This document shows, in pieces, positions 2,596-18,261 of a DNA stretch of 64,000 bases. Both the position numbers and the translations under genes were made by a program. The notes beneath the pieces are model-generated. The model was not told the origin of the DNA and made no database searches. It saw nothing but the letters and a program-made list of their open reading frames with translations. Origin of the DNA: Geothrix limicola. Its GTDB lineage: Bacteria > Acidobacteriota > Holophagae > Holophagales > Holophagaceae. Where the stretch lies: assembly GCF_030268085.1 (NCBI RefSeq), contig NZ_BSDE01000009.1, forward strand, positions 62,001-126,000, given 5' to 3'. Position 1 is the first letter of the stretch, and each line of letters begins with the position of its first letter.

Positions 2596-3099
2596 ATGCG
2601 CATCCTCGACCTCTCTCCCGATCAACGCCCCCGCGAACGCCTGCTGGCCGGCCACGGCGAAAGCCTGGCCGACGCCGAACTCCTCGCCCTGCTCTGGGGC
2701 ACGGGCCGCCAGGGCCAGAGCGCCGTGGAACTCGCGCAGGCCGTGCTCGGCCGCACCGGGGGCATCGCGGGCCTTCTGGGCCTGGGGTTCCACGACTGGC
2801 TGGACCAGCCGGGGCTCGGCCCCGCCAAGGCCGGCCAGCTGTGGGCCGCCCTGGAACTGACCCGTCGTTCCCAACGCACCGCCGAACGTCCCCGCATCAC
2901 CAGCCCCAAGGCCGCCGGCGCCTACCTGCTTTCCCGCTGCCTGGGCTGGGCCGAGGAACGTTTCGGACTGCTCGCGCTGAACGCCAAGGGCGATCTGCTG
3001 GCCGAGCGCATCCTCAGCCAGGGCACCGCCACGGCCACCCTCATCAGTCCGCGCGAATTCGTAGATTCTATGCAATCAATTTGTTCTATTTTTCTTTAA
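2596..3099 (+). pseudogene. radC: radC, 5' portion interrupted by genomic island
   Basis: Residues 1-155 match RadC/UPF0758: the N-terminal helical part with LADAELLALLWGTG, the helix-hairpin-helix around GLGPAKAGQLWAALEL, then the start of the JAMM-fold domain RFGLLALNAKGDLL...GTATATLISPREF. In intact RadC this is followed by F-(K/R)-EAL and the HxHP metal motif. Here the native sequence ends at the GAATTC at 3055-3060. A 12-residue island-derived tail (VDSMQSICSIFL) then leads to a stop at 3097-3099. The matching 3' part resumes at 17645. The truncated product keeps the HhH part but no metal-binding residues. Confidence 0.9.
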
Positions 3100-3194
3100 T
3101 CATTGTTTTTTAAGGTTTTAGTAGTCTTAAAAGAAACCAACGCGTTTAAATTGACTTTGTCGCATTTCAAAGCAAGGGTACGACCCACCCCGGC
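3100..3194. other. AT-rich left end of the island, no gene
   Basis: About 95 bases of T-rich sequence, including GTTTTTTAAGG, between the island-derived stop in radC and the folded repeat. I see no gene. It may hold recombinase binding sites. Confidence 0.4.
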
Positions 3195-3436
3195 AGAATC
3201 TCGATGGATGCCGGCCTGCAACGGCTGCTGGATTTCCTATGGAAAGCCCGGCCCCTCCCATGGATTGCGGGGCCCCACCCCCCCAATCCACGGGTCCCTC
3301 CAGCCTTTCCACAGGAAACGGCTGCAAGGCAGCCGCCCTTCGGGTCCACAACCATTGCCCTGCGGGTGGAAAGCCCTGAGGGGCTTTCCACAGGCCTTGG
3401 ATTCCGCTTCGCGGAATCCACATCCATCGAGATTCT
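3195..3436. repeat. Folded element bounded by a perfect 16-bp inverted repeat
   Basis: AGAATCTCGATGGATG (3195-3210) is repeated exactly inverted at 3421-3436. Between them lie several further stems: GGATTG/CAATCC (about 3262-3289), GGCTGC/GCAGCC (3320-3334), GGAAAGCCC/GGGGCTTTCC (about 3368-3389), and GGATTCCG/CGGAATCC (3399-3419). CTTTCCACAGG occurs twice, and GGAAAGCCC occurs at the start and again in the middle. The GC content is higher than in the rest of the island. The layout resembles a non-autonomous MITE-like element or a structured RNA or single-stranded DNA. No reverse transcriptase lies nearby, which argues against a retron. Confidence 0.65.
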
Positions 3437-3487
3437 TCATCATCAGCGGATATTGATAGCTCGCCTCTCGCCTTTGTCTCCTCCCCT

Positions 3488-3509
3488 GAGGCTCACAAAA
3501 CTGAGCCTC
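3488..3509. other. 8-bp hairpin at the 3' end of the 3493-3909 gene
   Basis: Arms GAGGCTCA (3488-3495) and TGAGCCTC (3502-3509) with the loop CAAAAC. It spans the stop codon of the minus-strand gene, so it may act in transcript ending or stability. No T-tract follows on either strand. Confidence 0.45.
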
Positions 3510-3909
3510 GAGTGCATTCATCCTGTGGGTGGTCGTCGCCGCAGGTCTCGCAAATCTGCTCAGATCGCAGCTCCGCCTGACCAATCAGCTCGTCGGATTC
3601 AGGGGTTCCACCGTCCACATAGAACCTCAGGCCTCCGTATTTGGATTTGACCTGGGCGGCCACCAGAACGAACTCCTCCCCTGCTTCGAGCTGTCGGAGG
3701 CAGATGGGCTCCAGCCTCCTACACAGGTCTCGAATGAGCTGGGTCCACCCAGGGCCGCATTCGAAGAACATGCCGTTCCGGAAGAGACACGGGAATTCCC
3801 AGATCAGTGATTCCATAGTTTCGACCTTCATGAATGACCTCTGATAGGAGATAGGATGCGCAGCTGCGTGTTCGGTGGGAGAGCTCCTGGCTGCTTGGAG
3901 CTCATCCAT
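3493..3909 (-). CDS. Hypothetical protein of phage/island type
   Basis: A protein of up to 138 residues. The ATG at 3831 (MKVETMESL...) is an alternative start that would give about 112 residues and leave a longer leader. The core reads FRNGMFFECGPGWTQLIRDLCRRLEP, VAAQVKSKYGGLRFYVDGG and ICETCGDDHP. A GPGW/LI..LC block, a VK.K(Y/F)G.LRFY block and a CxxC near the C-terminus recur in small uncharacterised proteins of phages and islands. The CETCGDDH segment could bind a metal. It is divergent from the restriction-controller gene at 3983, with the C-box between them, so both may answer to that regulator. The function is unknown. Confidence 0.55.
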   Translation of the reverse strand: MDELQAARSSPTEHAAAHPISYQRSFMKVETMESLIWEFPCLFRNGMFFECGPGWTQLIRDLCRRLEPICLRQLEAGEEFVLVAAQVKSKYGGLRFYVDGGTPESDELIGQAELRSEQICETCGDDHPQDECTRGSVL

Positions 3910-3931
3910 TTGGGTTTCGGGGAAAGCGAAC

Positions 3932-3960
3932 TTGACTTTAAGTCTATAGATCTAAAGTCA
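3932..3960 (+). promoter_or_regulatory. C-box operator upstream of controller gene
   Basis: TGACTTTA (3933-3940) and TAAAGTCA (3953-3960) form an inverted repeat 22 bp before the controller ATG. Internally it reads as two half operators, GACTTTAAGTC, then TATA, then GATCTAAAGTC. This is the two-site GACT-N3-AGTC arrangement bound by dimers of restriction-modification C proteins for autoregulation. It supports identifying the next gene as a C protein rather than a generic XRE regulator. Confidence 0.7.
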
Positions 3961-3982
3961 TTGCGCCTTCAGCCTCGGGCAG

Positions 3983-4219
3983 ATGAGCCGAGCCCGATCC
4001 GCCCGAGAAGCCTTTGCCGAGAACCTGCGCCAGGCTCGTCTGGACAAGGGTTGGTCTCAAATGGTGCTGGCGGAGGCGGCGGGATTACATTTCACTTACG
4101 TGAGTTCAGTCGAAGGTGCGAAAAGGAATGTGTCCATCGATGCCATGGAGCGCCTTGCAAAGGCTGTGGGGGTGCCCCTTTCAGACCTCCTCCTTCCGGT
4201 AACTGAGAAGCGTAGGTAG
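3983..4219 (+). CDS. XRE-family controller (C) protein of a restriction-modification system
   Basis: The 78-residue product is about the usual C-protein size. It is one helix-turn-helix domain: FAENLRQARLDKGWSQMVLAEAAGL, the recognition helix around HFTYVSSVEGAKRNVS, then DAMERLAKAVGVPLSDLL. The G.SQ..LA...GLH.TY.S..E...RN.S pattern is that of C proteins, which time expression of restriction enzymes by binding C-boxes. A near-palindromic C-box lies just upstream. No intact methyltransferase or endonuclease follows: the next minus-strand gene is unrelated as far as I can tell, and the segment at 4600-4952 is degenerate. It may be an orphan regulator left from a lost system, or may control neighbouring island genes. 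Confidence 0.75.
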   Translation: MSRARSAREAFAENLRQARLDKGWSQMVLAEAAGLHFTYVSSVEGAKRNVSIDAMERLAKAVGVPLSDLLLPVTEKRR

Positions 4220-4230
4220 TCCGGGCGCGC

Positions 4231-4569
4231 TTAAGCTCCTGGCGTGGGATGACGGGGGTCAATGCAGGCATTCGTGTGTAAAAGCCAGCCCTGGTTGAGG
4301 TGGGCATGGAGGTCAGCCATCCAGGTGGAATCGGCGGCTGCGTTAGGTCCTACCCAGCCACCCCCAGCGGCAAGTGTTCCGAAAATGTAGGCAGCTCCCG
4401 AGGATGCAACCCATTCTCGGAAATGGGAGACGTGGTGGGGGGGTCTGACCGGATGGAGATAGACATCCCCGCACTTATGGATCCAGAGGAGGTGAGGGGC
4501 GCTAGAGTCGTCGCGGGCTGCGACTAGGGCTTTCAGATCCTCGATGGTGGCTTGGTTGGGGAATCGCAC
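4231..4569 (-). CDS. Hypothetical protein, 112 residues
   Basis: An uninterrupted minus-strand frame between the controller gene and a C-box half site, convergent with the controller. The product is rich in Trp and His (LLWIHKCGDVYLHPVRPPHHVSHFREWVASSGAAY) and has glycine runs (TLAAGGGWVG). There is no signal peptide or membrane segment. I do not recognise the family. The even amino-acid use and the position between two regulatory sites favour a real gene, but chance cannot be excluded. Confidence 0.4.
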   Translation of the reverse strand: MRFPNQATIEDLKALVAARDDSSAPHLLWIHKCGDVYLHPVRPPHHVSHFREWVASSGAAYIFGTLAAGGGWVGPNAAADSTWMADLHAHLNQGWLLHTNACIDPRHPTPGA

Positions 4570-4586
4570 GGCCTCTCCGTTGCTTT

Positions 4587-4596
4587 ACTTATAGTC
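4587..4596. promoter_or_regulatory. Isolated C-box half site
   Basis: ACTTATAGTC matches 10 of 11 positions of the classical C-protein half operator (GACTTATAGTC). It sits between the minus-strand gene ending upstream at 4569 and the degenerate segment that follows, so it could serve either. Together with the operator at 3932-3960 it suggests the controller regulates, or once regulated, more than its own gene. Confidence 0.5.
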
Positions 4597-4599
4597 TAA

Positions 4600-4952
4600 A
4601 TGAACGATTGCTCCTCGAGATTCTATGCGGCGCCATGTCAAGCTGCTCCTAGTTCCGCTCTGCCCACCGCCGGCAGGCCAATCCAAGGGGAAGGGGGCGG
4701 CAAAGCCCGCGCTGAAGAAACGCACTGCATCCTCGATTCTCTGGAAGGGGGTCTATCTAGAGAGCGCGGCATACGAAGGCGATATTCAAAGCGCTCGAAC
4801 TGAATCCGATTCTGTCCGATTTCGGGGTGGTTCAGATCTCAAATGCGGACTGGGCGCAGTACCGGAAGAGCTACCGTAACTTTCCGGACTTGGCGTCCCT
4901 ATCTCAGCGGGCACTCACCTACCCGCCGAAGAACGAGGGTCCGTTAACTTGA
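4600..4952 (+). pseudogene. Degenerate gene remnant behind a C-box
   Basis: No frame runs through this segment, but the frame open from 4761 to the TGA at 4950-4952 reads like real protein: AIFKALELNPILSDFGVVQI, then SNADWAQYRKSYRNFPDLAS, then LSQRALTYPPKNEGPLT. Upstream the other two frames carry basic, low-complexity fragments. The remnant lies directly downstream of a C-box half site, where the endonuclease gene of a C-controlled restriction system would be expected. That identity is only a guess; the peptide itself is not recognised. The following 4953-5063 contains no gene. Confidence 0.4.
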
Positions 4953-5063
4953 CCACTTGGTCATAGACAGTTGGTTACACTCATGACACATTCGCGCTGT
5001 CACACGATTGGTTAGGGTGTAATTCGACCTGAGAAGTCGCCAGAACATAGGGGGCTAGAAGAG

Positions 5064-5918
5064 ATGATTTCAGGACTTGAGATCCCTTCGACCTGGCTAG
5101 TTAAGAGTTTGGGAGGGATAGCGAAGAAACTAGTCCTGTCCCTACTTGGGAATCCTTCCGAATGGGTAGCGAAAAAGATCTTCTTACCTACCTATGTAAA
5201 ATCCCACCGACTTTGGTATCGAAGGAACTGCTTGGGAAGCCACTGGGAGAGCTGCAAAGGGTTGTTTGAATATTCGTTATTTTTCCCATTGTCTATGGAC
5301 CGAGAAAGCGAACGCATCCCCAAAATTGAAGTGCGGGCGCTTGACAAGGACATCCAGCACCTTGAGCTTCTGCTTGAGGTGGAATCCCAATTAAATCGTT
5401 ATCAAGAATCGATCTCTCTGACCAATGTGACTAAGAAGTCCCTCATCAGGAACATGACCAACATTCCGATCCTAGATTTCCTTTATGTCAATCCGGACAA
5501 GGGAATACTCCTATTTACATGGGACACTTATAAGTTGTCAGTAAAGAAACTTGTCCAGGAAGATAGCAACGAATTCTTGCCATTTACTGTAACGTTCAAC
5601 GATCTAACCCATTTCTCATTGTTGAATTCGGATTGGGTACATCGTTGGGGCATGTGGTGGAACCTGGATGTCATCAAATTCACAAAGGAAGATATTCGTA
5701 TGAGATGGCGTCGAACGATCGATCCATTTGGTCTCTATTCCGAGAGACGCGGGCTCATACACCGAGTGGTGCACGTCCTTCTTCTGCGGCCCTTCGCTAG
5801 GGTGATGTCTCTTGAATTGGCAGTTTCCGGTCAATTCTGGATGGCGATTTGGTTTCGTGGCTTCCAGCTCGACGAGGGCCAACATGTATTTCGACCGCAA
5901 TTGGAAAAGACGTCATAA
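5064..5918 (+). CDS. Hypothetical island protein, 284 residues
   Basis: A complete frame with GGGGGCTAGAAGAG shortly before the ATG. AT-rich codon use matches the island. The N-terminus has an amphipathic, partly hydrophobic stretch (STWLVKSLGGIAKKLVLSLLG) that could touch membrane. The middle is acidic and helical, and the C-terminal 100 residues are rich in Trp and Arg (WVHRWGMWWNLDVIKF, MRWRRTIDPFGLY). I recognise no domain or catalytic motif. It is convergent with cap3 and separated from it by a hairpin, so it is a separate unit from CBASS. Its place among defence genes makes a defence or membrane-effector role conceivable but unproven. Confidence 0.55.
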   Translation: MISGLEIPSTWLVKSLGGIAKKLVLSLLGNPSEWVAKKIFLPTYVKSHRLWYRRNCLGSHWESCKGLFEYSLFFPLSMDRESERIPKIEVRALDKDIQHLELLLEVESQLNRYQESISLTNVTKKSLIRNMTNIPILDFLYVNPDKGILLFTWDTYKLSVKKLVQEDSNEFLPFTVTFNDLTHFSLLNSDWVHRWGMWWNLDVIKFTKEDIRMRWRRTIDPFGLYSERRGLIHRVVHVLLLRPFARVMSLELAVSGQFWMAIWFRGFQLDEGQHVFRPQLEKTS

Positions 5919-6121
5919 AAATATTAAAGCCACTTAGCTCGTGTCCGCCCGTTACCCAAAAATGACTCGACGCTTTTTTGGGGTAATTCACTCCGCTGAA
6001 GGGCGGAGTCAATCGGGGTGATTCTTGAGAAGGGCCCAAAAAACCAAATCTATAAACCCACTCGCATTGCAGCAAAGCCTCATTTCTGGCAATTAATTAA
6101 TTTTATTGAAGTAAATTTTTA
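5919..6121. other. Intergenic segment with 7-bp hairpin
   Basis: Between two convergent genes. ACTCCGC (5990-5996) and GCGGAGT (6003-6009) form a stem that may end both transcripts. A T-run (5973-5979, CTTTTTTG) and AT-rich sequence follow toward cap3. No gene is seen. Confidence 0.45.
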
Positions 6122-6625
6122 TTATGTAATTAAATAAGAATCATGCTGTTGCCGGGTTACCGGCGTCAACTCGACTAATTTATCTCCATCTTCCATGCCA
6201 ACGAAAATACCAGATGGGAAAGGCGATGTTCCAAGAATGACCACAAGGAATGCCCCGATGTCCTTTTTGGATTTTTTGAACACAGACCTCGAGCTAGCTC
6301 TATCCAACCCGGAGGGGTGAGGTGTGGGTTCGGGATGCGAGTGCCAATCGCCGATGAAATGGAGGCCATTCTCGTACTCCTCAAGAATTTCCGCCTGAGC
6401 AGCAGTTTTGTTCTGCCTAAACCCAAATTTGGATCGCCTATCAGCCGCCTTTGGTGAGGTCGCCTTCATTACCATTGCATTGCCATTACAAAATCGGGCA
6501 AAGAGCTGGCCCCCTGCCTCAGGATCATTCGATACCTGCTGAAATGCAGTCAATGTATGCAGTGCTTCTGGTGTGAAATGCACTTGATGGACCCTGTCTG
6601 GTAGCCAGTAACTAAGCATGGCCAC
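6122..6625 (-). CDS. cap3: CBASS Cap3, JAMM-family isopeptidase
   Basis: The 167-residue protein has the JAMM/MPN+ metalloprotease signature: Glu36 in PEAGGQLF, then DWHSHP with His95 and His97, Ser105 and Asp108 (H-x-H-x10-D), which bind catalytic zinc. In type II CBASS, Cap3 cleaves the bond that Cap2 forms between the CD-NTase C-terminus and target proteins, lowering the primed state. The gene is last in the capV-cdn-cap2-cap3 order and overlaps the end of cap2 by 14 bp, so translation is likely coupled. All metal-binding residues are present, so it should be active. Confidence 0.92.
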   Translation of the reverse strand: MAMLSYWLPDRVHQVHFTPEALHTLTAFQQVSNDPEAGGQLFARFCNGNAMVMKATSPKAADRRSKFGFRQNKTAAQAEILEEYENGLHFIGDWHSHPEPTPHPSGLDRASSRSVFKKSKKDIGAFLVVILGTSPFPSGIFVGMEDGDKLVELTPVTRQQHDSYLIT

Positions 6626-8405
6626 CTACCTCTGGGCGTGGCCACGGTGTTTCACAGTAGTACTGCCCCACGGGGGTATCTCCGTGTAACTCAATCCATT
6701 CCTGAGTCAGTTCACCGCCAAGTTGTCTGGCACGTTCAATGTCACCTACCCACGATCTCCAGCATGTAGCGTCCTCTTCCCGCAAGATCGTATCCAAAGC
6801 AATTCTTCCGATCAGAGCCTGCGTCTGACTTAGATCAACAGATCCATACGGCGCATGAATAGCCCCACAAACAATCCGAACGCCGTTCGAACCATCAGGC
6901 CAATCGAAGGTATGGAATCGGCGTTGGCCCGAATGGTTCAGCATGTCTTTGAACCGGGCAGAGCCAGTAGGTACCAAGACTCCATGCCCAGCGAGTGCGT
7001 GTGCCTCCAACCAACCGTATAGAACGGGAGGAAATTCTCCAGCCGCATGCAGTGCCTGAAATCGATCAAGAGCTAATTCAGAGGCCCATTCCGCAATGCA
7101 GCAAATAATCAAATCAGCTTGTCTTAATGAGTCGAGCTCCGTCGTTTGAAGATCTTCAAAGTTCTTCGGTATACCTTTGACCGTTAGATGAGGGAGGTTT
7201 TCCTGAATTACCTTCGCCAATCGGTCGGCCTTATTTTGGCCGATCGCACGTGCCCCAAGCGAATGGCGCGAGATATTTGCAGACTCGAGTGTTTCACCAT
7301 CAATAAGAGTGAGGGTGCCAACGCCGGCTCTTCCTAGTAACTCCGCAACACCTGAGCCAAGCGATCCGACTCCAATCAGAATGACATGTTTCCCCATCAA
7401 CACACCTTGTGTAGGGTCGAGGCTTCGTCCATGGATCCATGCATGATCAAGTCGATCGACCTGAATACGCTTCAATGGTGCTCTACCTGAGAGTATTGAG
7501 AAGCGAAAGACATCATCAGAAATACTCCCTGATCGAAAGCCCGCTAGGGTAATGCGGCCATTCTTCTCGAATTTTAATTGTTCTGGAGGTCTTAGAACAG
7601 CTCCTGCAAGGAGGTGCACGACAGGACCATTTGTTTTGAAGAGAAGAGATAGCCGCTTCTGTCGTTCTGATATCAAATTATCGAGGATGTCAAGCTCAGT
7701 ACTACTTGCGTATTTTTTGATAAACCTCTCCAGCTGCTGCCCTGAATCTGGAAAATCCCATGGCTTCGGAAAGTCCTTCAGCTCGATGAACGCGGCATTG
7801 GTTTCGAATCGACTTGGCGCTACGCCCCTTGAGTTCAGGGGAATTCGGTAGCGTAATTGCTCATCATCATCATAGAAATACCGATCCCCTCCCTCAATCG
7901 AAGTGTATAAGATCTTTCGGCTTCCTTTTTTAAGGTCGACCAAAGAATAAGCTCTCTGAAGTGGCTTGACATCACGTGTCCAATAAATCGGCCACTCTTG
8001 GTCAAATTCTGATTCAATGTCGCCACTTTGATATTTTCGTATCAACCTTGATGCACTTGTCATCACGGCCTTAACGAGGTGAAGTGGAGAACTTGCTGAG
8101 AAGAATTGATCAGGCTCAAAAAGGCATAACACCCCAGAATGTTCGACATGGGGACACCGTTCCCTGAGTTCCCTGTCTGTGATTTGGACCCGAGGCAGAC
8201 TAAATGGAAACGTGCCCTCAAACAGCAAGGAGCATGCTGGGAGGTTTCGAAGTTGTGGGAATTTCCATCCAGCCCGAAATACAGGGCTAACCGATTGAAG
8301 CTCAGGCGGCTTGAGCCTAGTAGCTGTTGGAATGGATTCCGATATCCATTGCTCAACCTTGCTGATCGCTTCCTCGAACAAGGCTGTATGCAGTCTTTGG
8401 TCCAT
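6612..8405 (-). CDS. cap2: CBASS Cap2, fused E2-E1 conjugating enzyme
   Basis: This 597-residue protein carries an E2-like domain (about 1-150) with candidate catalytic Cys94 in HVEHSGVLCLF. A linker follows, then a ThiF/E1 domain (about 335-580) with the nucleotide loop VILIGVGSLGSG (345-352) and the acidic TLIDGE. Cys548 (DATCWRSW) is the probable E1 cysteine. Cap2 adenylates the C-terminus of the CD-NTase and passes it through the two cysteines to a target, which primes the cyclase for phage sensing. The length and domain order are normal for the family. It begins 13 bp after the CD-NTase stop and overlaps cap3. Confidence 0.93.
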   Translation of the reverse strand: MDQRLHTALFEEAISKVEQWISESIPTATRLKPPELQSVSPVFRAGWKFPQLRNLPACSLLFEGTFPFSLPRVQITDRELRERCPHVEHSGVLCLFEPDQFFSASSPLHLVKAVMTSASRLIRKYQSGDIESEFDQEWPIYWTRDVKPLQRAYSLVDLKKGSRKILYTSIEGGDRYFYDDDEQLRYRIPLNSRGVAPSRFETNAAFIELKDFPKPWDFPDSGQQLERFIKKYASSTELDILDNLISERQKRLSLLFKTNGPVVHLLAGAVLRPPEQLKFEKNGRITLAGFRSGSISDDVFRFSILSGRAPLKRIQVDRLDHAWIHGRSLDPTQGVLMGKHVILIGVGSLGSGVAELLGRAGVGTLTLIDGETLESANISRHSLGARAIGQNKADRLAKVIQENLPHLTVKGIPKNFEDLQTTELDSLRQADLIICCIAEWASELALDRFQALHAAGEFPPVLYGWLEAHALAGHGVLVPTGSARFKDMLNHSGQRRFHTFDWPDGSNGVRIVCGAIHAPYGSVDLSQTQALIGRIALDTILREEDATCWRSWVGDIERARQLGGELTQEWIELHGDTPVGQYYCETPWPRPEVGGHA

Positions 8406-8418
8406 TGATCAAGGAACC

Positions 8419-9441
8419 TTAGGCGTAGTCTGAATTCCCGCCCTTTATTACGACCCCTGGAGTTCCTGATGTCTCAAAGGCGGAGCTCTTTTTCCCGCTG
8501 TCTGATGGATCTGGTTGCTCGTTGAAGAAGTCCGTATTGAAAATCGCACTCCAGGCCTTCATGGCCTGTTCAAAGCTGCAATCCGATATTTCGAGCTGAT
8601 CCAGATCCTTTTCCCTTTCAGAGAGGCAGTCTTTCAGGAATGTCGTCTTCGGATCGGGAATCTTCTTGGTAATGTTTTCACTCAATATGGGGTGTTTAAC
8701 AACCGTGTCTATCTCCAATCGCCGAAGAATCCTTCTCATTGTCACTCTGAGGGACTCGTCATCTCGTCCTGCTGAGGGATAGTAGTTCTCCTGCACTAAT
8801 TTTGAAATTGCAAAACCAGAAGCAGACTTCCCCACCCAAGATGAACGACTCACAGAAAATTTCTTCAACAGACGCACGATTCTCCGCAACTGTTCATCAT
8901 CATCGGACGGGCTCTGTTTAGATACGACATCATTAAACCATGCGGTCACACCTCGGGCATCAGAGACCTTCCAGTCCGTACTTGCGAGTTCGGCGACCTC
9001 TCCCGAACCAGAAGATCCCTCGCTCAAGCGATACACAGGGACATCAACGTGATATCCCTCTTCGTAATAAACACGGACACAATTTGGTTTCACTTCGGGA
9101 GGTGTCTTAAAGGATCTTCCATTCGTGAGCGCTTCACAGACCATTTTTCGAGCATCGAGGGCAGTTTTATCCGCCCCCTTCTCGCCAACTAAATCCGATT
9201 TTTTGAAATAGACTCCGTCATCGATATCGATTTGATCTTCAGGTGTTTGGACCATGGTTCGCATCATGTACGATCCTTGTGACGCGAATCCCTTAGGATC
9301 GGGGTTCTTTTTCTTTTGGAGTCCAGAAGTAAGCGCGTCGCGATTTGTATCCCTACGCTGCTGCATCTTCTTGCGTTGATCAGTTGGTAGATCTACCTCT
9401 TCATCATGAAATTTCTTCATCTGCTTCGATGTATCGATCAT
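8419..9441 (-). CDS. cdnA: CBASS CD-NTase (cGAS/DncV-like nucleotidyltransferase)
   Basis: 340 residues. The nucleotidyltransferase core has the GS motif at 56-57 (QGSYMMRT), the metal-binding pair Asp72 and Asp74 in QIDIDDGVYF, and the third Asp133 in YHVDVPVYRL. These residues are complete, so an active cyclic (oligo)nucleotide synthase is expected. DIDDGVYF is characteristic of the DncV-like clade A, whose usual product, 3'3'-cGAMP, activates CapV phospholipases; the exact product here is inferred. The flexible tail ending GGNSDYA is the likely substrate of Cap2. It starts 10 bp after capV and leads into cap2 by 13 bp, in one operon. The symbol reflects the apparent clade, not an alignment. 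Confidence 0.93.
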   Translation of the reverse strand: MIDTSKQMKKFHDEEVDLPTDQRKKMQQRRDTNRDALTSGLQKKKNPDPKGFASQGSYMMRTMVQTPEDQIDIDDGVYFKKSDLVGEKGADKTALDARKMVCEALTNGRSFKTPPEVKPNCVRVYYEEGYHVDVPVYRLSEGSSGSGEVAELASTDWKVSDARGVTAWFNDVVSKQSPSDDDEQLRRIVRLLKKFSVSRSSWVGKSASGFAISKLVQENYYPSAGRDDESLRVTMRRILRRLEIDTVVKHPILSENITKKIPDPKTTFLKDCLSEREKDLDQLEISDCSFEQAMKAWSAIFNTDFFNEQPDPSDSGKKSSAFETSGTPGVVIKGGNSDYA

Positions 9442-9451
9442 GTTTGTCTCC

Positions 9452-10543
9452 TCAACTGACTGGCTGAATGGTTTCCATAAACAGACGATTCAGAGATTGA
9501 ATGCTCCCTTCTTTCGGATCCATGCACAAACTACGAAGTTCGGTTGCGTGATTGCGGCCAAGATCTTCCAAGGCATTGGTCCCATTCATTGATGTTTCGT
9601 CAAGTGCTAGATATGGCTGGACAGATAAAGGAACTTCAAAGGTTGGGAATCGAGCAACCATTATGTTCGGTAACCATTTGGATATCTTACCGACTATCTT
9701 ATCGTAGGCCGAGGCCTGCGCATCGATCCCCAAAGAGGCCGCTCTCCCTCCGAACTGCCACTCGGAAAATCCCCAATCAAGATCTGCTTCCCCGACAGGC
9801 CCCCCGTTAATACTTGGACAAGTACCTATGGAATAGATCTCTATGGGCCTACTGGTGGAATCGCCGCGTATCTCCAGGGCGTCCACCAGGCCAACCAATA
9901 CCGGATTATTCGCCCAGAGTCCTCCATCTACGTAAAGCTGAGCCGGACCATTTCCAAGCGTCGGCGTAACTGAAGCGAGCGATCGGTAAATTGGAGCCGC
10001 AGAGGATGCGAGGCAAGCATCGACTAATGTCATCCTCTCGTCTCTCCGATCCAACCCTTGATGGTGAGCTGATTTGAAAACACGTGGATGATGGTGACCC
10101 AGTTCAACGGCGGGGATGCAGATTCCAATTCGGCGATCGGCGAACACATCGCCTAACGTTGTCGTTCCAAACACCTCACTGAGGGCTAATCGCAGTGCCT
10201 CGGCACCAGTCCTGTTGAGCGATTTTCTCTTCCTGACATGCCAGAGCAGGGAGAGAAGGGAACTCGGTAAGGGCTCTGGAAATATCGATGGACCCCATTT
10301 TTTATACAACTCGCGAACTCTAGATAACTTACATCCTGTGGCCAAGGCCGCAGCCAGGATCGCCCCGGTACTAGTGCCAACGATCAGATCAAATGATGCC
10401 CCGATGTCTAACTTGGCACACTGACGAGCACTTTCGCAGTAGGTGGCGAAGTGGTCTAAATAGGAGGCTGTGTACAGCCCTCGCATTCCCCCACCGTCAA
10501 TGGTGAGAACTCGTATAGGTTTGGAGAATTGGTCAACCGTCAA
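9452..10543 (-). CDS. capV: CBASS effector CapV, patatin-like phospholipase
   Basis: The 363-residue patatin domain has the oxyanion-hole motif TIDGGGMRGL (15-23), the nucleophile elbow GTSTG with Ser58, and the catalytic Asp206 in YVDGGLWANNP, so the Ser-Asp dyad is intact. In CBASS, the cyclic dinucleotide made by the CD-NTase activates CapV, which degrades membrane phospholipids and kills the infected cell. It is the first gene of the operon and reads away from the AlbA_2 gene; the 293 bp between them must hold both promoters. Confidence 0.93.
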   Translation of the reverse strand: MTVDQFSKPIRVLTIDGGGMRGLYTASYLDHFATYCESARQCAKLDIGASFDLIVGTSTGAILAAALATGCKLSRVRELYKKWGPSIFPEPLPSSLLSLLWHVRKRKSLNRTGAEALRLALSEVFGTTTLGDVFADRRIGICIPAVELGHHHPRVFKSAHHQGLDRRDERMTLVDACLASSAAPIYRSLASVTPTLGNGPAQLYVDGGLWANNPVLVGLVDALEIRGDSTSRPIEIYSIGTCPSINGGPVGEADLDWGFSEWQFGGRAASLGIDAQASAYDKIVGKISKWLPNIMVARFPTFEVPLSVQPYLALDETSMNGTNALEDLGRNHATELRSLCMDPKEGSIQSLNRLFMETIQPVS

Positions 10544-10836
10544 TGAAGTGCCTATGAGTGGAGAGCTAAATCGTACCTCACATGATGGATTCTTACAAAA
10601 ATTTTGGTTAAGGAAATGACGCTGATCAACAGAATGAGTCTACCTCTCTTCTCTCCATCCACAATGCCCGAGTGAACAAAGCCAGACCTTGCCAACTAGC
10701 CACTTGCTCCTTCTCGCTCAGTCTCGATTTCTGAATTTTTCTCGGTGAGGTATCAGTTCTTCGAACATGAGTTTCAATTCTGGAATATATTTAATCTCCA
10801 TTCAAAATCTAGCCACTCGGCAATACAGGAAGATCT
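10544..10836. promoter_or_regulatory. Divergent promoter region between CBASS and the AlbA_2 gene
   Basis: About 290 bases of AT-rich sequence without a gene, from which capV (left) and the AlbA_2 gene (right) diverge. The stretch GGAATATATTTAATC (about 10782-10796) is a plausible -10 area for the rightward gene. I see no clear operator palindrome. Confidence 0.45.
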
Positions 10837-12255
10837 ATGCTCCCAGAAGATGAAAGGCTTAATCAGGCTCGGCGCGTAGCCATTCAGCATTCGGAAGGGT
10901 TCGGTATTGAACACAAGTCTTGGTTGGATCTCAGCAACCCGGATGACCAAGTTAAATTAATCCGAGCCATTTTAGCGCTTCGAAATAATGATGGCGGTTG
11001 GCTCGCGATTGGTGTCGAGAATGGCACGGGAATGACAGCGAAAAACCCACCTAGCAATCTACGTGTGTCCTACGACGCCGATGCTATCAACAAGTTGATA
11101 GTTGAATTCAGCAGTGATCCATTTGGGGTGGAAGTTTGCTACCCCGATGTTGATGGCGTCGAAGTGGCCGTTCTTCGAATTCCCGGAGGAGTAAAAAATC
11201 CTGCTGTCACCAAGAAATCCATTGGTGTGACCAAGCTACTAGAGGGCGACACGATTTATTGTCGATCAATGCGTGGGGGACAGGTGAGTTCCGTCAAAGC
11301 GAACCACCGAGATTTGGGGGAGATCTTGGAAAGGTGCATGCGTAACCGGGAGCTTGACATCGGGACATTCGTGCGCCGCCATTGGGAAGACTTGACCCGA
11401 GAGGTATCGAGTCTTCAAAGCCCACCCGAGCGACGATTAGACGAATTTGTAGGAACATGTCTTTCAAAGTTTGGACAAAGGCTAGTAGATCATAATTTAA
11501 AAAGAATCCCCATGCCTGGACAACTCGCGGTTGGTGTAGCGTGGGATGGCCGCCTTCCTGATACAAACTCTACAGAACACTATTTTACAAGGATGATAAT
11601 GGCCCACCCCCAAAAGGGAGGTTGGCCTCCATGGATGGATCCAAGAGACTTCCCAGGATCTCATTGCAAGCGCGACGTTAGAGATGGCGCCTGGGAGGGT
11701 CTGATTGCGATTCCAGAATCCCATGCTCAAGGGATTGTCTTTAGCGCCCTGGACTTCGCAGTGTGGAACTTCTCGGTGGGACTGTTCCATTCTGGAAGCT
11801 ACGTGGATGACCATCCTGCGCTCGGCATCCAACAAATGGTCTCACGAGGAGAGACATGGGTAATGGGGGGGCCACCTCCCTGGTACAGGAGAGCATTGGA
11901 TCGAAGGAATATCGTTCGTGATGTGGCTAACCGACTATTCACAGCCCAAAGCCTTGTGGCTGGACTCTTCAAAGGACAGGACGCACCACTCCCAGAAAAT
12001 TTATTCTTCTACTTCAGGTTCGATAGCTTGAAGGGGCGGCTTCTCGCGGATTATGAAGGCGGTGGATTTTCTAGGCCCGCTAACAAGGCAATGGATGAGT
12101 CAATCGTTTCGTACACCCAATTGAAGATGGACTCGGACCGGAGCGTGATTGCCGAACGCACTCGAAGTGTCCTTCGGCCCCTCTTCTCAGCTTTCGGCGG
12201 AGAAGACTTGCCCCAGCAAAGAGTTGATAATTGGCTCGCCGGGTTTTGGGTATAG
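10837..12255 (+). CDS. AlbA_2 (Schlafen-like) domain protein
   Basis: 472 residues. The first 170 match the AlbA_2/Schlafen-type putative DNA-binding fold: FGIEHKSW with Glu25 and Lys27, then IRAILALRNNDGGWLAIGVENGTG, and later AVLRIPGG and IYCRSMRGGQV. AlbA_2 proteins bind nucleic acid, and Schlafen relatives include RNases; Glu25 lies where such enzymes have an acidic residue, but activity cannot be claimed. Residues 200-472 form an unrecognised domain rich in Trp and Pro (GGWPPWMDPRDFPG, MGGPPPWYRRA). It diverges from the CBASS operon and converges on the recombinase operon with only 35 bp between them. It may be an independent defence or regulatory gene, or a CBASS accessory. Confidence 0.7.
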   Translation: MLPEDERLNQARRVAIQHSEGFGIEHKSWLDLSNPDDQVKLIRAILALRNNDGGWLAIGVENGTGMTAKNPPSNLRVSYDADAINKLIVEFSSDPFGVEVCYPDVDGVEVAVLRIPGGVKNPAVTKKSIGVTKLLEGDTIYCRSMRGGQVSSVKANHRDLGEILERCMRNRELDIGTFVRRHWEDLTREVSSLQSPPERRLDEFVGTCLSKFGQRLVDHNLKRIPMPGQLAVGVAWDGRLPDTNSTEHYFTRMIMAHPQKGGWPPWMDPRDFPGSHCKRDVRDGAWEGLIAIPESHAQGIVFSALDFAVWNFSVGLFHSGSYVDDHPALGIQQMVSRGETWVMGGPPPWYRRALDRRNIVRDVANRLFTAQSLVAGLFKGQDAPLPENLFFYFRFDSLKGRLLADYEGGGFSRPANKAMDESIVSYTQLKMDSDRSVIAERTRSVLRPLFSAFGGEDLPQQRVDNWLAGFWV

Positions 12256-12290
12256 TTTCTTGCTCTGCTGTATTCCTCGGACCGTAGCCA

Positions 12291-12743
12291 TCACCGACGA
12301 TTGCGTGAAAGGGGTGGGAGAGGGCGGTCTAGTTCCTCTGGTTCAAGCCCTAATCGGATTGCATTGAATTCGTACCTCTTCCACTTGGCATCGTAGGCGG
12401 AGAGGGTGTCCTTCAATGCCCTCAGTTCTTCTTCAAGTAGATCGATACGTTGGAGGAATGCCTCAGCCCCCGATTTGGCAGCTCTCTCCGGGCGGGTAAA
12501 AGGCGAATTTTTTGCCTTCAAGGCAGCCTTGGTCTTCCAGTACCTAGCCTTGATTTCGGGTCGAGCTTCTAGAGTTCCCCTTGAAAAGCCTACCGACTTC
12601 GCAAGTTCATCCCAAGTGAGATGCCCTTTCTTATTGCCTACCTCCCAATTCTCCAGGATCTGAAACACTAACTCACGATCTTTTTCGCGGAATCGAGGTC
12701 TAGCCCCTGTCTTACGACCCTTCACCTGTTTCTTGCTGATCAA
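12291..12743 (-). CDS. ginD: Small HTH protein of the recombinase operon (GinD-like)
   Basis: 150 residues, overlapping the large recombinase gene by 4 bp. A basic N-terminus (KKQVKGRKTGARPRFREKDRE) precedes a helix-turn-helix-like segment (LTWDELAKSVGFSRGTLEARPEIKARY) and a coiled-coil region (EAFLQRIDLLEEELRALKDTLSAYDAKWKRYEF). In GInt islands the fourth gene of the operon encodes a small putative DNA-binding protein reported as needed, with the three recombinases, for recombination. The assignment rests on position, size and this layout, not on alignment. Confidence 0.7.
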   Translation of the reverse strand: MISKKQVKGRKTGARPRFREKDRELVFQILENWEVGNKKGHLTWDELAKSVGFSRGTLEARPEIKARYWKTKAALKAKNSPFTRPERAAKSGAEAFLQRIDLLEEELRALKDTLSAYDAKWKRYEFNAIRLGLEPEELDRPLPPLSRNRR

Positions 12744-14746
12744 AGTCCCTCCCTTTCAGACATATCAATGCCATCAGGAATCACTCGTATCTTCGCTTTT
12801 GAACCAGTGACCAGCGCATCCTCGATGTGTTGTAAGGCCTTGCTCGTATGCACCACGATCTCTTTGAAATGAAGAATGTTCTGATTTCGCTCTGCAATAT
12901 CCCGAGGAATCCGGCGTGCCTCTAGGTGATCGAGAATCGAGGAAATCGTTTTCAAGGCCTCGTCTCTTGCCTTGATGAGTTCCTCCTTAGTTGAAGGATT
13001 CATCGGATCTACAAGGTGGTGGCGACATCCTCGAAGACAAGCTAGATGATGAGGGCAGGGGTTTAGCTGAAGGTCCCGTGTGCAGTACATACCCTCGGCA
13101 GTACGATGAACGATAGGCACCTGAGCTAAAAGAAATTCATTCTGTACTGTCGAATCCTTAAGCGCACGAAATGCATCAGCCTTAGGACCAATCAGCACAC
13201 CAGAGCGCATCAAACCTGTGATCCTCTCCGTGAGCTCCCAGGGAGAGGAATGCTCATAATGAGCATTCTGGTGGGGAGACTTCCGCCCATGTATGGCGGC
13301 CAACATAGCATCTGAGGCCCCCCCATCCTTAAGCGCCGTTACATGGAGATGCCTCGGCATATGCGTGCGAAGATGGGGTCTATTCCCGCCCTCGTCTAGC
13401 AGATTTAATCTTGAGCATGTCTGCCCTAACCAGGTCAGTACATCTTGGTCCCGAAGCTGACGGGGGAAAAGAAAATGCTGAATATCTCTCGTTGCTTTGT
13501 GGCGATAACCCTTTCGATGACCCCATACACAAAGGGAGTTGCTCATCGAGAGCACGGCTCTTCCGTCGCGGAAGATTGTGGGGTGAGCGATCAGCTTCTT
13601 CCTGTGGCCACTCTCGATGTCGCCAGCCGATATTGTCATTTGCCCCCGTGGGATATCGGCGGCAACCTTCACCGCAGTCACCGTTTCAATTTTCTTCTTC
13701 TCCACATCTGGTCTAAGTTTAAATTCTGTGATGATTTGGCCAAGAGAAAGACGATAGGTGCCATCACAGCGGGGGATTGTTTTCCATGGAATTCGCCCGG
13801 GATTCTCTTCGATGAATTTAGCCGAGGATCTCGCCTCTGCACACAATGTGGCGAGGGTGGTGACGGCCTTCGAAATCAGCTCTCGGCACCTCTCAGCTAC
13901 GGGGACTAGAATCCAGTTCCCACCTTTCTCCGGCCCCCCCGGCAGGCGGAGGTGTAACCCCTGATTGGCGATATCGACAAGGGGATCCATCGCTAGGGTC
14001 AACACCTCTCCTATCCTCAAGCCAGTTGCCATCTGAATATCGAAGATCGCCAGAATTACCCTGTCATACGGGTCGGTGAGCCTATCGCGCTCCCGCCCGA
14101 TTGCCTCCAGGACCGACATCGATGGCAATTTTTCCTTCCGAGCTGCAGCAGCTTCGGCAGACATGGGATCAAGGTGGGTCGATACGCTGAGTACTCTCGG
14201 AGTGTAGTGAATGGGTGCCCGAAGAAGCCTCAATTCGTTGAGCCACTCACTGAGTTGACGGAGTACGCAGCTATAACTTGATGCACTCTTCGGCTGGCGT
14301 CGGTTTATCTCATCCTCCGCCCTGACGAAGTGAGACAGATGAAGCGACGTTACTTCTTCGAGAGCGTTCTGGGCAGCTCCCCCGAGATAGGCTCCAACTA
14401 GCACCCTGCGCTGAATAGTCGCATAGGACATAGGGTTCAAAGCCTGCTGAGTCACGATCCAAGCCTTGATGATTTCTTCGACCTGTGTCATCTGTCCAGA
14501 AGGGCTGCTATTGCGAAATTTTCGAAAGGAGATCATTGGGCGCTGCTGATGTCCGCGGAAGTTATCGAGCCAAGATCGGATGTCCCAACTAGCGGAATCC
14601 CATTTCAATATTTTTACAAGTGGATGAGTCCTTGCTGCTCTGATAAGCGCCGCTACATTTTCCTTGGCATCTAGACACCCTCTAGTCACCAAGTTATTGA
14701 TGCCTGGATCAATGATCCGCCCGTGAACCGATTTACTACTTTTCAT
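12740..14746 (-). CDS. ginC: Large tyrosine recombinase (GinC-like)
   Basis: 668 residues, third in the 4-bp-overlapping operon. The catalytic domain shows Arg244 in QMATGLRIGEVL, the HxxR box at His462/Arg465 in THMPRHLHVT, His486 in AAIHGRKSPHQ and the candidate nucleophile Tyr497 in NAHYEHS. The spacing from the histidine to the tyrosine is wider than the usual nine residues. A later cluster, MYCTRDLQLNPCPHHLACLRGCRHHL (about 555-585), looks like a zinc-binding module. A long extra region between the two halves of the active site makes it bigger than XerC/D-type enzymes, as expected for this class. It cuts and joins DNA at the island ends. Confidence 0.85.
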   Translation of the reverse strand: MKSSKSVHGRIIDPGINNLVTRGCLDAKENVAALIRAARTHPLVKILKWDSASWDIRSWLDNFRGHQQRPMISFRKFRNSSPSGQMTQVEEIIKAWIVTQQALNPMSYATIQRRVLVGAYLGGAAQNALEEVTSLHLSHFVRAEDEINRRQPKSASSYSCVLRQLSEWLNELRLLRAPIHYTPRVLSVSTHLDPMSAEAAAARKEKLPSMSVLEAIGRERDRLTDPYDRVILAIFDIQMATGLRIGEVLTLAMDPLVDIANQGLHLRLPGGPEKGGNWILVPVAERCRELISKAVTTLATLCAEARSSAKFIEENPGRIPWKTIPRCDGTYRLSLGQIITEFKLRPDVEKKKIETVTAVKVAADIPRGQMTISAGDIESGHRKKLIAHPTIFRDGRAVLSMSNSLCVWGHRKGYRHKATRDIQHFLFPRQLRDQDVLTWLGQTCSRLNLLDEGGNRPHLRTHMPRHLHVTALKDGGASDAMLAAIHGRKSPHQNAHYEHSSPWELTERITGLMRSGVLIGPKADAFRALKDSTVQNEFLLAQVPIVHRTAEGMYCTRDLQLNPCPHHLACLRGCRHHLVDPMNPSTKEELIKARDEALKTISSILDHLEARRIPRDIAERNQNILHFKEIVVHTSKALQHIEDALVTGSKAKIRVIPDGIDMSEREGL

Positions 14747-16272
14747 TGGGAGTCACTCCCATCCAATTCGATCGCTTCAACGACCGCTTGAACGCCATGG
14801 ATGGCAGAGTCAAGCTGGGCCGCCAACAGCAATCCCGTTCTCCCTGTTTCAAGTAATCGACGCTTCCGATCCTGTAGTTGTTGAAGGTAGACCAGGTGGT
14901 TTCTACTCTTCAAAGCAACCAGGTACTCACACCCATAACAACTCAATGGCGGATCGAGGCGACACTGCCGTTTCGATCCACACTCCCCGATTTCTAAGAT
15001 AGCCTTGTTCGATTGCGCAAAAATAGCCCGAGCTGGCGACACTTGATCTACTAATCGCCCAGAGTACCGATCGATAATTTCTCCAAGATTTTGATCGACA
15101 AGCCGATTATACAAACTGTCCTGGTCGGACCTAATTCGGTAATAGTGCTTCGCAGAATTCAAGGATGTGTGGCCGAGTTTCCGCGCAAGGACTGTCATCG
15201 GAACACCCCTATTCGCAAGTAGGGTTCCGAAAGTGTATCTAAGCGACTGAGCGCTTACCTTTCGTCGGGTATTGGTGCGACTCGATATGACAGGAATTTC
15301 GTTGCACCAAACTCGAATCTTCATACTCAGATGGTCATAGTTCCAATGCCAGCGAAACGGGTCCTCTACTCTACTTCGAGCCTCAGCCCTGAAGATCAAC
15401 GGTCGAAAGTCTCCAACCTTGGTTTCAAATCGATTCCTGTTCTGTTGGATTAGATCTCCAATCAGTCTGGCCAATTCCGTCTCTAGCCCAATTTCGATAG
15501 GAGGGTTGCGTCTGGGGTCATCGTACCTCTGCTTCACTAAATGTACTTTCAATCTGAACCACTCATTCCCTCCGATTTTTTCCGATACAAAATCATCCTC
15601 CCGAATCATGGCAATCGATGCTGGACGTAATCCAAATGCCCCTACAAGAATCAGGACAACCTTACCTTCGAGTGGAAGTGTGGAACTCTTCCATACCCCT
15701 TTGATGAAATTCGCGAACTCAACTTCATCGAGAGGCCCCAACTGCGGGTCCATGTTCCTCACCGGCATTAGCGCAGGCCGCAAAACCTTAATCGATCGAA
15801 CCTTGTGAAGGACGTCTTCAGTGACGAGATCAGGCCGGACATCTCCAATCCATTGAAGGAACAGCTTCCAAAATGGCCAATAGCCAATGAGGCCCTTTGT
15901 TCTCACCCATCCCAAAATCCCTGAAACTTGAGGCCAATCAAAGCTCTTCCACTGCTCTACCCCCCCGGTATTCAGTTCATACCCCCGAAGAGGAGAAAGC
16001 AGGCCATTCCAGACTGATCTGATGGAGGAATCAGCTTTTGATCTAATGACATGACGCATGAATTCCTTGGTCACTTCTGCCAACTCTCCCCTTAGAGGAA
16101 ACTCGGTCCAGTCCAATCGAACGCTAATGGCATGTCGTCCACCGCGAAGAATCCAAGTGTCATTTTCGATAATCGCTTTTGCCCCACCTTTGGTTAGCAA
16201 CTCCGTTAGCTGGGCTTCGGGTCCCTCGCCATTCTGATTTGGTTTAGAGATGATGGACTTCATCGGGCTCAT
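14743..16272 (-). CDS. ginB: Tyrosine recombinase (GinB-like)
   Basis: 509 residues, second gene of the operon, with 4-bp overlaps on both sides. The core includes Arg216 in GAFGLRPASI, the second arginine Arg345 in SAQSLRYTFGTLL, His368 in ARKLGHTSLNSAKHYY, and Tyr377 as nucleophile at the normal spacing. The first residue of the HxxR box is Gln342 instead of His. A C-terminal Cys-rich segment (CGSKRQCRLDPPLSCYGCEYL) resembles a small zinc finger also seen in other multi-recombinase islands. It probably works together with the other two recombinases. Confidence 0.87.
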   Translation of the reverse strand: MSPMKSIISKPNQNGEGPEAQLTELLTKGGAKAIIENDTWILRGGRHAISVRLDWTEFPLRGELAEVTKEFMRHVIRSKADSSIRSVWNGLLSPLRGYELNTGGVEQWKSFDWPQVSGILGWVRTKGLIGYWPFWKLFLQWIGDVRPDLVTEDVLHKVRSIKVLRPALMPVRNMDPQLGPLDEVEFANFIKGVWKSSTLPLEGKVVLILVGAFGLRPASIAMIREDDFVSEKIGGNEWFRLKVHLVKQRYDDPRRNPPIEIGLETELARLIGDLIQQNRNRFETKVGDFRPLIFRAEARSRVEDPFRWHWNYDHLSMKIRVWCNEIPVISSRTNTRRKVSAQSLRYTFGTLLANRGVPMTVLARKLGHTSLNSAKHYYRIRSDQDSLYNRLVDQNLGEIIDRYSGRLVDQVSPARAIFAQSNKAILEIGECGSKRQCRLDPPLSCYGCEYLVALKSRNHLVYLQQLQDRKRRLLETGRTGLLLAAQLDSAIHGVQAVVEAIELDGSDSQ

Positions 16273-17462
16273 TCGCTCTCCACGATGGAAAGGAACTTCT
16301 TCTGCATCTCTCGACAGACCGATTGGGCCATAGCCTCGATCCGCCTGTCCGCGTACCTATTTCCGGTATCGCTCGTTTTCGACCACCCATTGAGATAGTT
16401 CAAATATCGCTTCGCATCCTCATCTCCAATCCCCCTGGCATCAAAAAAGTCCATCAAACACTCTGTGTACGTGTGCCGGAGGGTATGCGGAGTAAGTCTA
16501 CTCTCTCGAAACTCCGGGATTGCCCTCCTCAATGTTGCAAACAAAGCGTTCACGCTGTTCAATGCCATGGGCTGGCCACCTCGAGATAGAAAGAGAAAGG
16601 GGCTTTGCCAGGCCCCGGGGGAGGCGCTACGAGCTTTGAGAAACCTCCACATAACACCCGGAAGCCCGGCGTCTTCCGATATTGCCGTTCCAAAACCCTC
16701 CAGTGGGATCAATCGGCCGTTCGTTTTGACCTCCGGCTCTATCAATCTAGGATCCTCAGGGTCGTCTGGCCTTCGAACCACCTGTATGTAATTGTTTCGA
16801 GCAAGGACAAGGTCTGAGGTCCTGAGCTTGAGCGCCTCCCCACGTCGAATTCCCGTAAAGAAGAAGAGAAGCAAGAGGGCGTAGTTTCGCTCTCGCACAT
16901 CATGGGAAAATGGGTTCTCGCTTGAATCAGGTCGGATAACCTCTAGGAATCGGCTTCGTAGACCAGGGCTCAAACTGCGCCCCTGACCACCCTTCCCACG
17001 TGGTCGTAAGGCCTTCATCCGCTTCAGGAAATGGTCCCGTTTGAGGTGGTAATGCCGAGCCATTTCTCCCGTACGCCTGGAGAGCTGAACGCCGGACCAC
17101 CAATCGAGGTACCCGATAATCACTTGAAAGTCCGCTGAAGTGGTAGAGGCCAGGACTTCCCCACGATGAACGGAGTTCGTCCTGTGCCTACTTCTGAACT
17201 CCTCAAGGAGGCCGAGCGCTTCGTGCTCGTACAAAAAATTTGCGGTTCGTACCCGCTCATCCAGATCCAAGCCGAGGGCTTCGAACCAGGAGTACATCCT
17301 TGCTAAGGCTGCTGCATCCCTACGTAGAGTGCTTGCCTGGACTCGTGGCCTACGGATAAGAAGCAACCACTGATTCGAAGGGCGATGGGGCAACCCGCCG
17401 CTATCAGCCACCAGCGAATCTCTTTCTCCATCGCTATGAATGATATGCCTACATGTAAACAA
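16269..17462 (-). CDS. ginA: Tyrosine recombinase (GinA-like)
   Basis: 397 residues, first gene of the recombinase operon and closest to the right island end. The active site is visible: Arg206 in FFTGIRRGEA, a lysine at about 246 (EVKTNGR), His326 and Arg329 in LTPHTLRHTY, Trp360 in the NGWSK position, and Tyr370 in GNRYADRR. An N-terminal core-binding SAM-like domain precedes it. It ends in a 4-bp overlap with ginB. The promoter must lie in the 180 bp between its ATG and the radC 3' part, which probably also holds recombinase binding sites. Confidence 0.88.
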   Translation of the reverse strand: MFTCRHIIHSDGERDSLVADSGGLPHRPSNQWLLLIRRPRVQASTLRRDAAALARMYSWFEALGLDLDERVRTANFLYEHEALGLLEEFRSRHRTNSVHRGEVLASTTSADFQVIIGYLDWWSGVQLSRRTGEMARHYHLKRDHFLKRMKALRPRGKGGQGRSLSPGLRSRFLEVIRPDSSENPFSHDVRERNYALLLLFFFTGIRRGEALKLRTSDLVLARNNYIQVVRRPDDPEDPRLIEPEVKTNGRLIPLEGFGTAISEDAGLPGVMWRFLKARSASPGAWQSPFLFLSRGGQPMALNSVNALFATLRRAIPEFRESRLTPHTLRHTYTECLMDFFDARGIGDEDAKRYLNYLNGWSKTSDTGNRYADRRIEAMAQSVCREMQKKFLSIVESE

Positions 17463-17644
17463 TCGATGCCTCCGACCAGAAGACGATAGATGTTTGACAT
17501 TTTTTTGAACAAGTGTATTGAATTTTATGCACCAGAATGAGGCTGAGCAAGGGCGAAAAGGTGTAACACATGTCGACTGTTAAATCCTTTTTATGTATCT
17601 ATTACGGAAAACATCTAACAACTCAGGTCCATCTTAGACCTAAC
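17463..17644. other. Right island end with recombinase promoter and putative core sites
   Basis: AT-rich segment without a gene of its own. Just inside the junction, AGGTC (17621-17625) and GACCT (17637-17641 region) form an inverted repeat, a plausible recombinase core. The minus-strand sequence before ginA includes poly-A/T runs fitting a promoter. A start at 17570 fuses 25 island-derived residues in frame to the radC 3' part. Confidence 0.45.
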
Positions 17645-17860
17645 TTCCGCGAGGCCCTGCGCTACGGCGCCACCACGGCCCTCGCCTACCACAACCATCC
17701 CAGTGGCGACCCCACCCCCAGCCGCGAGGACACCCAGCTCACGCGACGCCTACAAGCCGCCGGAGAATCCCTGGGTGTGCCCCTCGCCGACCACCTCATC
17801 CTCGGACACGGCCGCTACCACAGCTTCCGCGCCGCCGAAGGCTGGGATGCCAAGGCCTGA
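17570..17860 (+). pseudogene. radC: radC, 3' portion with JAMM motif, fused to island sequence
   Basis: From about 17645 the frame encodes the last 70 residues of RadC: FREALRYGATTALAYHNHPSGDPTPSREDTQLT with the HNHP-x7-8-D JAMM-type metal motif, then LADHLILGHGRYHSF. An ATG at 17570 gives an open frame of 96 residues whose first 25 come from the island. The fragment could be translated, but it lacks the N-terminal HhH domain and half of the JAMM fold. Together with 2596-3060 it accounts for one complete chromosomal radC before insertion. Confidence 0.88.
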
Positions 17861-17912
17861 TACGACGACGCCCCGCATCGCGGGGCGCTGGTTGGCGGAG
17901 GGAGAGGGATTC
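17861..17912. repeat. Duplicate of the tRNA-Ser(TGA) 3' end and its downstream hairpin
   Basis: These 52 bases are identical to 18057-18108, which contain the hairpin CGCCCCGC/GCGGGGCG and the last 20 bases (with CCA) of the minus-strand tRNA-Ser(TGA). After 17912 the match to the tRNA stops. The two copies are offset by 196 bp. This is the pattern left by recombination or tandem duplication at a tRNA 3' end. The 144 bases between the copies hold no gene. Confidence 0.8.
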
Positions 17913-18056
17913 CCTCCAGGGCCACCGCTCCGCGGCGTCCCTTCCGGCCGCAGGCAGCGCTGGCACGCCGCTTCACGCCTCCGGCAGTCCCCCGGACTGC
18001 CTCCGCCTGCGGCTACCTGCCAGCCCTGCTCTGATTTCGAATCCCTCTCCCCCTAT

Positions 18057-18178
<122 letters not shown>

Positions 18179-18261
18179 AGACCTCCATCTTGAAGGCTGG
18201 GGGCGGCTTCCGGCAAGAAGCCTTGTGTCCAGCGGTCCTCAAAGGTAATCTGGAAAGCCTT

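Follow-up and report, generated by a model that had tools for sequence, protein, structure and literature searches.

A family of strand-specific multi-hairpin modules near the ends of unrelated mobile elements in the Holophagaceae

A folded element in an island that splits radC

The window analyzed, a 64,000-nucleotide stretch of the Geothrix limicola genome, holds a radC gene split by a mobile island (Table 1), the 5′ part of the gene stopping at 3060 (GAATTC) and its 3′ part restarting at 17645 (TTCCGCGAGG). Three tyrosine-recombinase-like proteins and a small protein are encoded at the far island end (12291–17462), and this grouping of recombinase, recombinase-like protein, long recombinase and small protein as one operon at one end is the mark by which SE/GInt-type elements are recognized. 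It is also the layout of the SE four-gene recombination operon as given in PMC10214605. In having such an operon and in its site-specific insertion the island resembles SE, GInt, Tn554 and gamma-mobile-trio islands, a likeness of the carrier only and not of the folded unit considered below, which is present on DDE transposons also.

The cargo includes a CBASS-like operon (6122–10543) for a JAB-type protein, an E1/E2 fusion (Cap2-like), a DncV-like nucleotidyltransferase and a patatin-type phospholipase, the last with a score borderline for the CBASS lipase model of NCBIfam. Between these genes and the recombinases is a Schlafen/AlbA_2 domain protein (10837–12255), possibly an extra defense gene. 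A further ORF is at 5064–5918, and the ORF at 3493–3909 matched nothing in Pfam or NCBIfam. No retron or other reverse transcriptase was recognized among the island genes looked at. Downstream of radC, the region leading up to the tRNA-Ser genes has an imperfect repeat, CGACGACGCCCCGCATCGCGGGGCGCTGGTTGGCGGAGGGAG (17703–18248), on either side of its start.

The element itself (3195–3436) lies within the island at 134 bp from its 3060/3061 end, the one away from the recombinases, and, as the initial annotation had it, is GC-rich where the adjoining island DNA is AT-rich. The 16-nt arms described there as perfect terminal inverted repeats are indeed 100% complementary, and the further stems and twice-occurring motifs said to lie between them could be placed: a 10-bp hairpin, an 11-bp hairpin and a long interrupted arm, with CTTTCCACAGG at 3305 and 3384 and TGGAAAGCCC at 3240 and 3367. 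The extent needed revision, as the arms are real but the conserved unit exceeds the 240-bp element, occupying about 3181–3448 on the minus strand with a leader, CGCTGATGATG, and a tail, TGGGTCG, in addition. When both strands were folded, each did better than its dinucleotide shuffles, the minus strand most strongly (z about −12): −94.8 kcal/mol (z −12.2) as DNA and −164.7 (z −11.9) as RNA, with the weaker plus strand at −80 (z −9.9) and −136 (z −8.6), respectively.

Rfam 15 gave no family at gathering score over the element and only chance-level matches in a permissive search, and neither an intrinsic terminator nor a sigma-70-like promoter was found in the region. Open frames cross the unit in several frames; a coding reading was rejected on inspection, as the frame shifts with respect to the conserved hairpins among relatives.

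Table 1. Positions in the window of the island, its recombination genes and the parts of the conserved unit
Feature	Positions	Strand	Basis
Mobile island splitting radC	3061..17644		radC parts and junctions
radC 5′ part	2596..3060	+	RadC domains; junction
radC 3′ part, end approximate	17645..17860	+	HNHPSG motif; junction
Tyrosine recombinase, IntA-like, adjoining far island end	16269..17462	-	PF00589
Second recombinase-like protein	14743..16272	-	PF00589; NF041502 below cut-off; G042 homologue
Long recombinase, 668 aa	12740..14746	-	PF00589; G042 homologue
Small fourth operon protein, 150 aa (Srap/TnpC position)	12291..12743	-	G042 homologue in the same position
Entire conserved unit, from 5′ leader through multi-hairpin fold to 3′ tail	3181..3448	-	Homologues in many Holophagaceae mobile elements; leader and tail shared
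5′ leader, here CGCTGATGATGA, in most relatives TGCTGCTGATG	3437..3448	-	Alignments; motif search finds leader in nearly all units
Closing stem P1, 5′ arm (the earlier terminal inverted repeat)	3421..3436	-	Perfect complement of 3195–3210; different sequence yet paired in L002, L003
Hairpin P2, tip C-GAA-G	3398..3420	-	10 bp perfect; fold
Hairpin P3, invariant TGTGGRAA at base	3366..3391	-	11 bp perfect; invariant alignment columns; helix 3
Mini-hairpin CCC-GCA-GGG	3358..3366	-	Helix 4: 100% of cells paired, double changes
Mini-hairpin CCC-GAA-GGG	3335..3344	-	Fold
Hairpin GGCTGC-CTT-GCAGCC	3320..3334	-	Fold; covarying counterpart in L002, L003
Long arm, its symmetric internal loop purine-rich; forms the R1 model core	3233..3318	-	Core alignment; helices 6, 7
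Closing stem P1, 3′ arm	3195..3210	-	Complementarity
3′ tail TGGGTCG, beyond the part modeled by R2	3181..3187	-	Common to G013, IS256, ISL3 and IS3 units

Relatives and their carriers

The window element is a member of a new family of modules about 150–260 nt long, multi-hairpin and strand-specific. A search for further copies found just the one in its own genome; relatives were found in other genomes. Among 100 relatives, two genomes of the same genus (G042 and G013) contain near-complete related units with 80–83% identity, and each of these units likewise occupies the distal end of a recombinase island. Their closing stems are unrelated in sequence and still pair, which argues against conserved transposon termini. 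On account of this variation in P1 among relatives, together with the single copy and the lack of a visible target duplication beside the arms, the suggestion in the initial annotation that the element could be a MITE was rejected.

The four recombination genes of the G042 island are in the same order as those of the window. That island splits a radical-SAM gene within its cysteine motif (L050, about 4624–5505; L011, about 9990), and among its cargo genes are one for a fused E1/JAB-like protein and one resembling type IIG restriction enzymes. The G013 island encodes a gamma-mobile-trio GmtZ integrase scoring 877 bits, well above the NCBIfam cut-off (L051 15053–18235); here a GmtZ integrase is present in a Holophagaceae genome and so outside Gammaproteobacteria.

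Two models were used for wider searches, R1 for the core and R2, a full-length covariance model. R1 matches occur in 10 of 77 genomes of Holophagaceae, several of them directly 3′ of istB in IS21 elements. R2 is positive in 24 of the 93 class genomes searched; all 24 are Holophagaceae, and the 16 genomes from other families were without exception negative. Matches in a phylum sample of 297 genomes were likewise confined to Holophagaceae, and an exact-pattern scan of GTDB genome contigs returned only Holophagaceae, Geothrix or Holophaga records. Phage and plasmid collections (blastn) and viral contigs (exact pattern) gave no match.

Common to the unit types are the leader TGCTGCTGATG or something close to it, the closing stem, a mini-hairpin, the long arm and a hairpin whose base reads TGTGGRAA or nearly so. 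The first pair of the mini-hairpin at 3358–3366 is C-G, G-C or A-T across relatives. The tail is outside the part modeled by R2, and its presence in several unit types is therefore evidence of homology that does not depend on the model score. The motif at the base of P3 is like a DnaA box; it is an exact match in three IS256 units, has one mismatch in most others and is absent in several, and a one-mismatch match is not a rare chance occurrence in a unit of 200 nt.

Units have been found near an end of IS21, IS256, ISL3 and IS3 elements, of an IS481-like DDE element that has an AAA ATPase, and of recombinase islands. Most carriers encode DDE transposases and three have tyrosine recombinases. 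One copy, in L043, is near a relaxase and another gene. Where the IstB of IS21 is at least 80% identical over its full length the unit is present in 8 of 8 elements, and with IstB about 71% identical it is absent; as IS21 relatives without it exist, the unit is not essential. The IS256-type carrier lineages are only about 35% identical to each other. One genome (G050) has six IS256 copies, five of them full-length at 1.58 kb and near-identical and the sixth at 95%, and another (G059) has six of 1.59 kb, all with the unit inside, so the unit travels with these multicopy elements. IS1182/IS5-type elements had no unit of their own at 29 loci; a unit in L108 has an IS21-type repeat and is beside an IS1182-type gene, and a truncated one in L104 adjoins an IS1182-type fragment.

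Orientation with respect to the transposase is constant within each carrier family seen and differs between families. In ISL3 the unit is just upstream of the transposase gene on the same strand, in IS21 and IS256 it runs antisense to the transposase genes and converges on them, and in the three recombinase islands it is on the recombinase coding strand. There are also two solo pieces of 216–218 bp (L118 2678–2898; L134 1548–1763), spanning from the unit leader to the right end of IS3 with unrelated sequence upstream, so that breakage may be favored at the edge of the leader. L137 was considered as an IS-free unit and set aside, its flanks resembling decayed IS3 sequence. By score the IS256 unit of L119 is nearer to the units of IS3 than to its relatives in IS256, which hints weakly at units being exchanged between IS types.

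Covariation, strand and hairpin tips

Across 13 units, standard pairs make up 95.6% of cells against 85.9% in shuffles, and double-change pairs number 21 of 55 against 9.9, with 0 of 500 shuffles as high, the units within one IS family being related and the counts not independent. The signal is lost when the partners are shifted by a single base. With G-U pairs barred from the folding, the predicted structures have 59 G-T (G-U) and 4 A-C helix mismatches, and merging identical contexts leaves 46 and 4. A strand-neutral palindrome is expected to have G-T and A-C in about equal numbers, and the great excess of G-T therefore points to one strand as the functional one. Template-switch repair of palindromes can mimic covariation; by itself it would not explain the G-T excess. 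The family and its distribution, and the conservation and covariation of the fold on one strand, are well supported. With relatives and covariation present, the initial annotation escapes the refutation it had set itself, a lone copy lacking both conservation and covariation.

Whether a fold of this type is selected as DNA or as RNA may be reflected in its hairpin tips. Among 186 hairpin loops in 37 units there are 61 GNA triloops, 59 with a C-G closing pair, along with 15 GNYA and 5 GNRA loops and no UNCG tip. Dinucleotide shuffles yield 1.3% GNA, 1.0% GNYA and 2.4% GNRA, so that the observed GNRA is at background, and with identical tips merged the counts are 33, 8 and 3 of 118. RNase P RNA from the same class, passed through the same pipeline, has the reverse, with GNRA at 100, GNA at 2 and GNYA at 1 of 305 loops, a control of one RNA family and so a narrow one, with loops assigned in minimum-energy predictions. 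GNA and GNNA loops on G-C stems are extraordinarily stable DNA mini-hairpins (PMC4686876). DNA-like tip types, reversed in RNase P RNA, are the main reason for reading the fold as one apparently selected as single-stranded DNA, a conclusion that is well supported but indirect. The reversal between GNA/GNNA and GNRA points to a simple sequence-based way to distinguish folds selected as RNA from ones selected as single-stranded DNA.

A possible site for second-strand initiation

Those carriers that belong to mechanistically characterized families are in families reported to copy out one circularized strand. PMC9333248 counts IS3, IS21, IS256 and ISL3 among the copy-out-paste-in families; such elements circularize one strand in a figure-eight, and host replication then makes the circle (PMC9333248; PMC7780238). 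For SE elements, the parts of PMC9345347 and PMC10214605 drawn on here describe circularization of only one strand and, in cells, double-stranded nicked circles; those same parts report no such module in Gammaproteobacteria. Going by the gene order described in them, we took the coding strand of the operon, on which the unit lies in the three recombinase islands, to be their top strand. A folded site on the displaced strand would be how a single-strand initiation site is expected to look.

In the explanation that fits best, to which we give about an even chance, the unit is a cis-acting, strand-specific single-stranded DNA fold that serves as a single-strand initiation site for the second strand of a copied-out circle. 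Transposition of the carrier would copy out one circularized strand, as a figure-eight and then a circle; the module would fold while the displaced strand is single-stranded and would start second-strand synthesis in the manner of plasmid and phage sso, ssi and primosome sites, so that the copied-out strand would become a double-stranded circle able to integrate. Action in the single-stranded state, the starting of DNA synthesis and the choice of host factor are what we infer. The broader notion, that the unit is an exchangeable second-strand origin specific to its host clade, moving between unrelated mobile elements and forming a new class of cis-acting transposition part, is put forward more tentatively.

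Like sso/ssi sites, phage primosome sites and the A site of the ABC-primosome, the unit is noncoding, about 100–300 nt in size and folded on one DNA strand only, and its carriers from reported copy-out families would share with theirs a single-stranded stage. Unlike those sites, which are on replicons, it is on insertion sequences and recombinase islands and is common to unrelated elements. The ABC-primosome A site is a DnaA-box hairpin (PMC6127211), which the motif at the base of P3 recalls, though in the unit the likeness to a DnaA box is only partial. Against a role in initiation are the varying strand of the unit relative to the transposase gene in different IS families and its presence on the IS481-like/AAA element and near the L043 relaxase, carriers without an established copy-out mechanism.

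A structured noncoding RNA, perhaps a small RNA, a leader or a transcription insulator that controls carrier expression or blocks read-through, had been one of the suggestions of the initial annotation, and its premise of a conserved, covarying fold has stood. Such an RNA would account for the strand specificity and for the placement in ISL3, but the hairpin tips are of the DNA type, opposite to those of RNase P RNA from the same bacteria, the region has nothing like an Rfam family, promoter or terminator, and the antisense, convergent arrangement in IS21 and IS256 does not suit it; we regard it as unlikely. Distinctly unlikely, in our estimation, is a self-mobile or trans-mobilized REP/MITE-like hairpin element that hitch-hikes in the safe noncoding ends of transposons. 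REP/BIME and MITEs are likewise short, noncoding, palindromic and linked to transposases, and the many unrelated carriers, the IS21 relatives with and without the unit, the two 216-bp solo pieces starting at the leader and ending at an IS3 terminus and the L119 score could be seen in this light. Unlike them, however, the unit is confined to the ends of mobile elements, its placed copies being almost all inside or beside these; it lacks conserved termini and a target duplication, and Y1 transposase is not required, being missing from most unit-bearing genomes, including the complete G050 and G059, with no correlation between the two.

Of the three suggestions in the initial annotation a folded recombination site came closest, in that the evidence now favors a fold of single-stranded DNA, specific to one strand, on a mobile element; crossover is not at the fold, as the radC junction is 134 bp outside it. 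Integron attC sites are folded DNA strands associated with tyrosine recombinases, and three carriers have such recombinases, but no crossover falls within the unit and most carriers have DDE transposases instead. Frpo sequences are folded single-stranded DNA promoters of early expression (PMC11541004) and share with the unit strand-specific folding on mobile DNA; they differ from it in that its GC-rich stems have no −35/−10 match and it is not upstream of leading-region genes. That the unit is an Frpo-like promoter or an attC-like site used by recombinases is accordingly very improbable.

Conversion of the figure-eight or displaced strand to a double-stranded circle is currently attributed to host replication and repair. 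If the proposal of a second-strand initiation site is correct, the module shared by IS3, IS21, IS256, ISL3 and recombinase islands would be a dedicated DNA part for circle conversion, and unrelated mobile elements in one host lineage would be sharing a replication part and so be tied to the machinery of that lineage.
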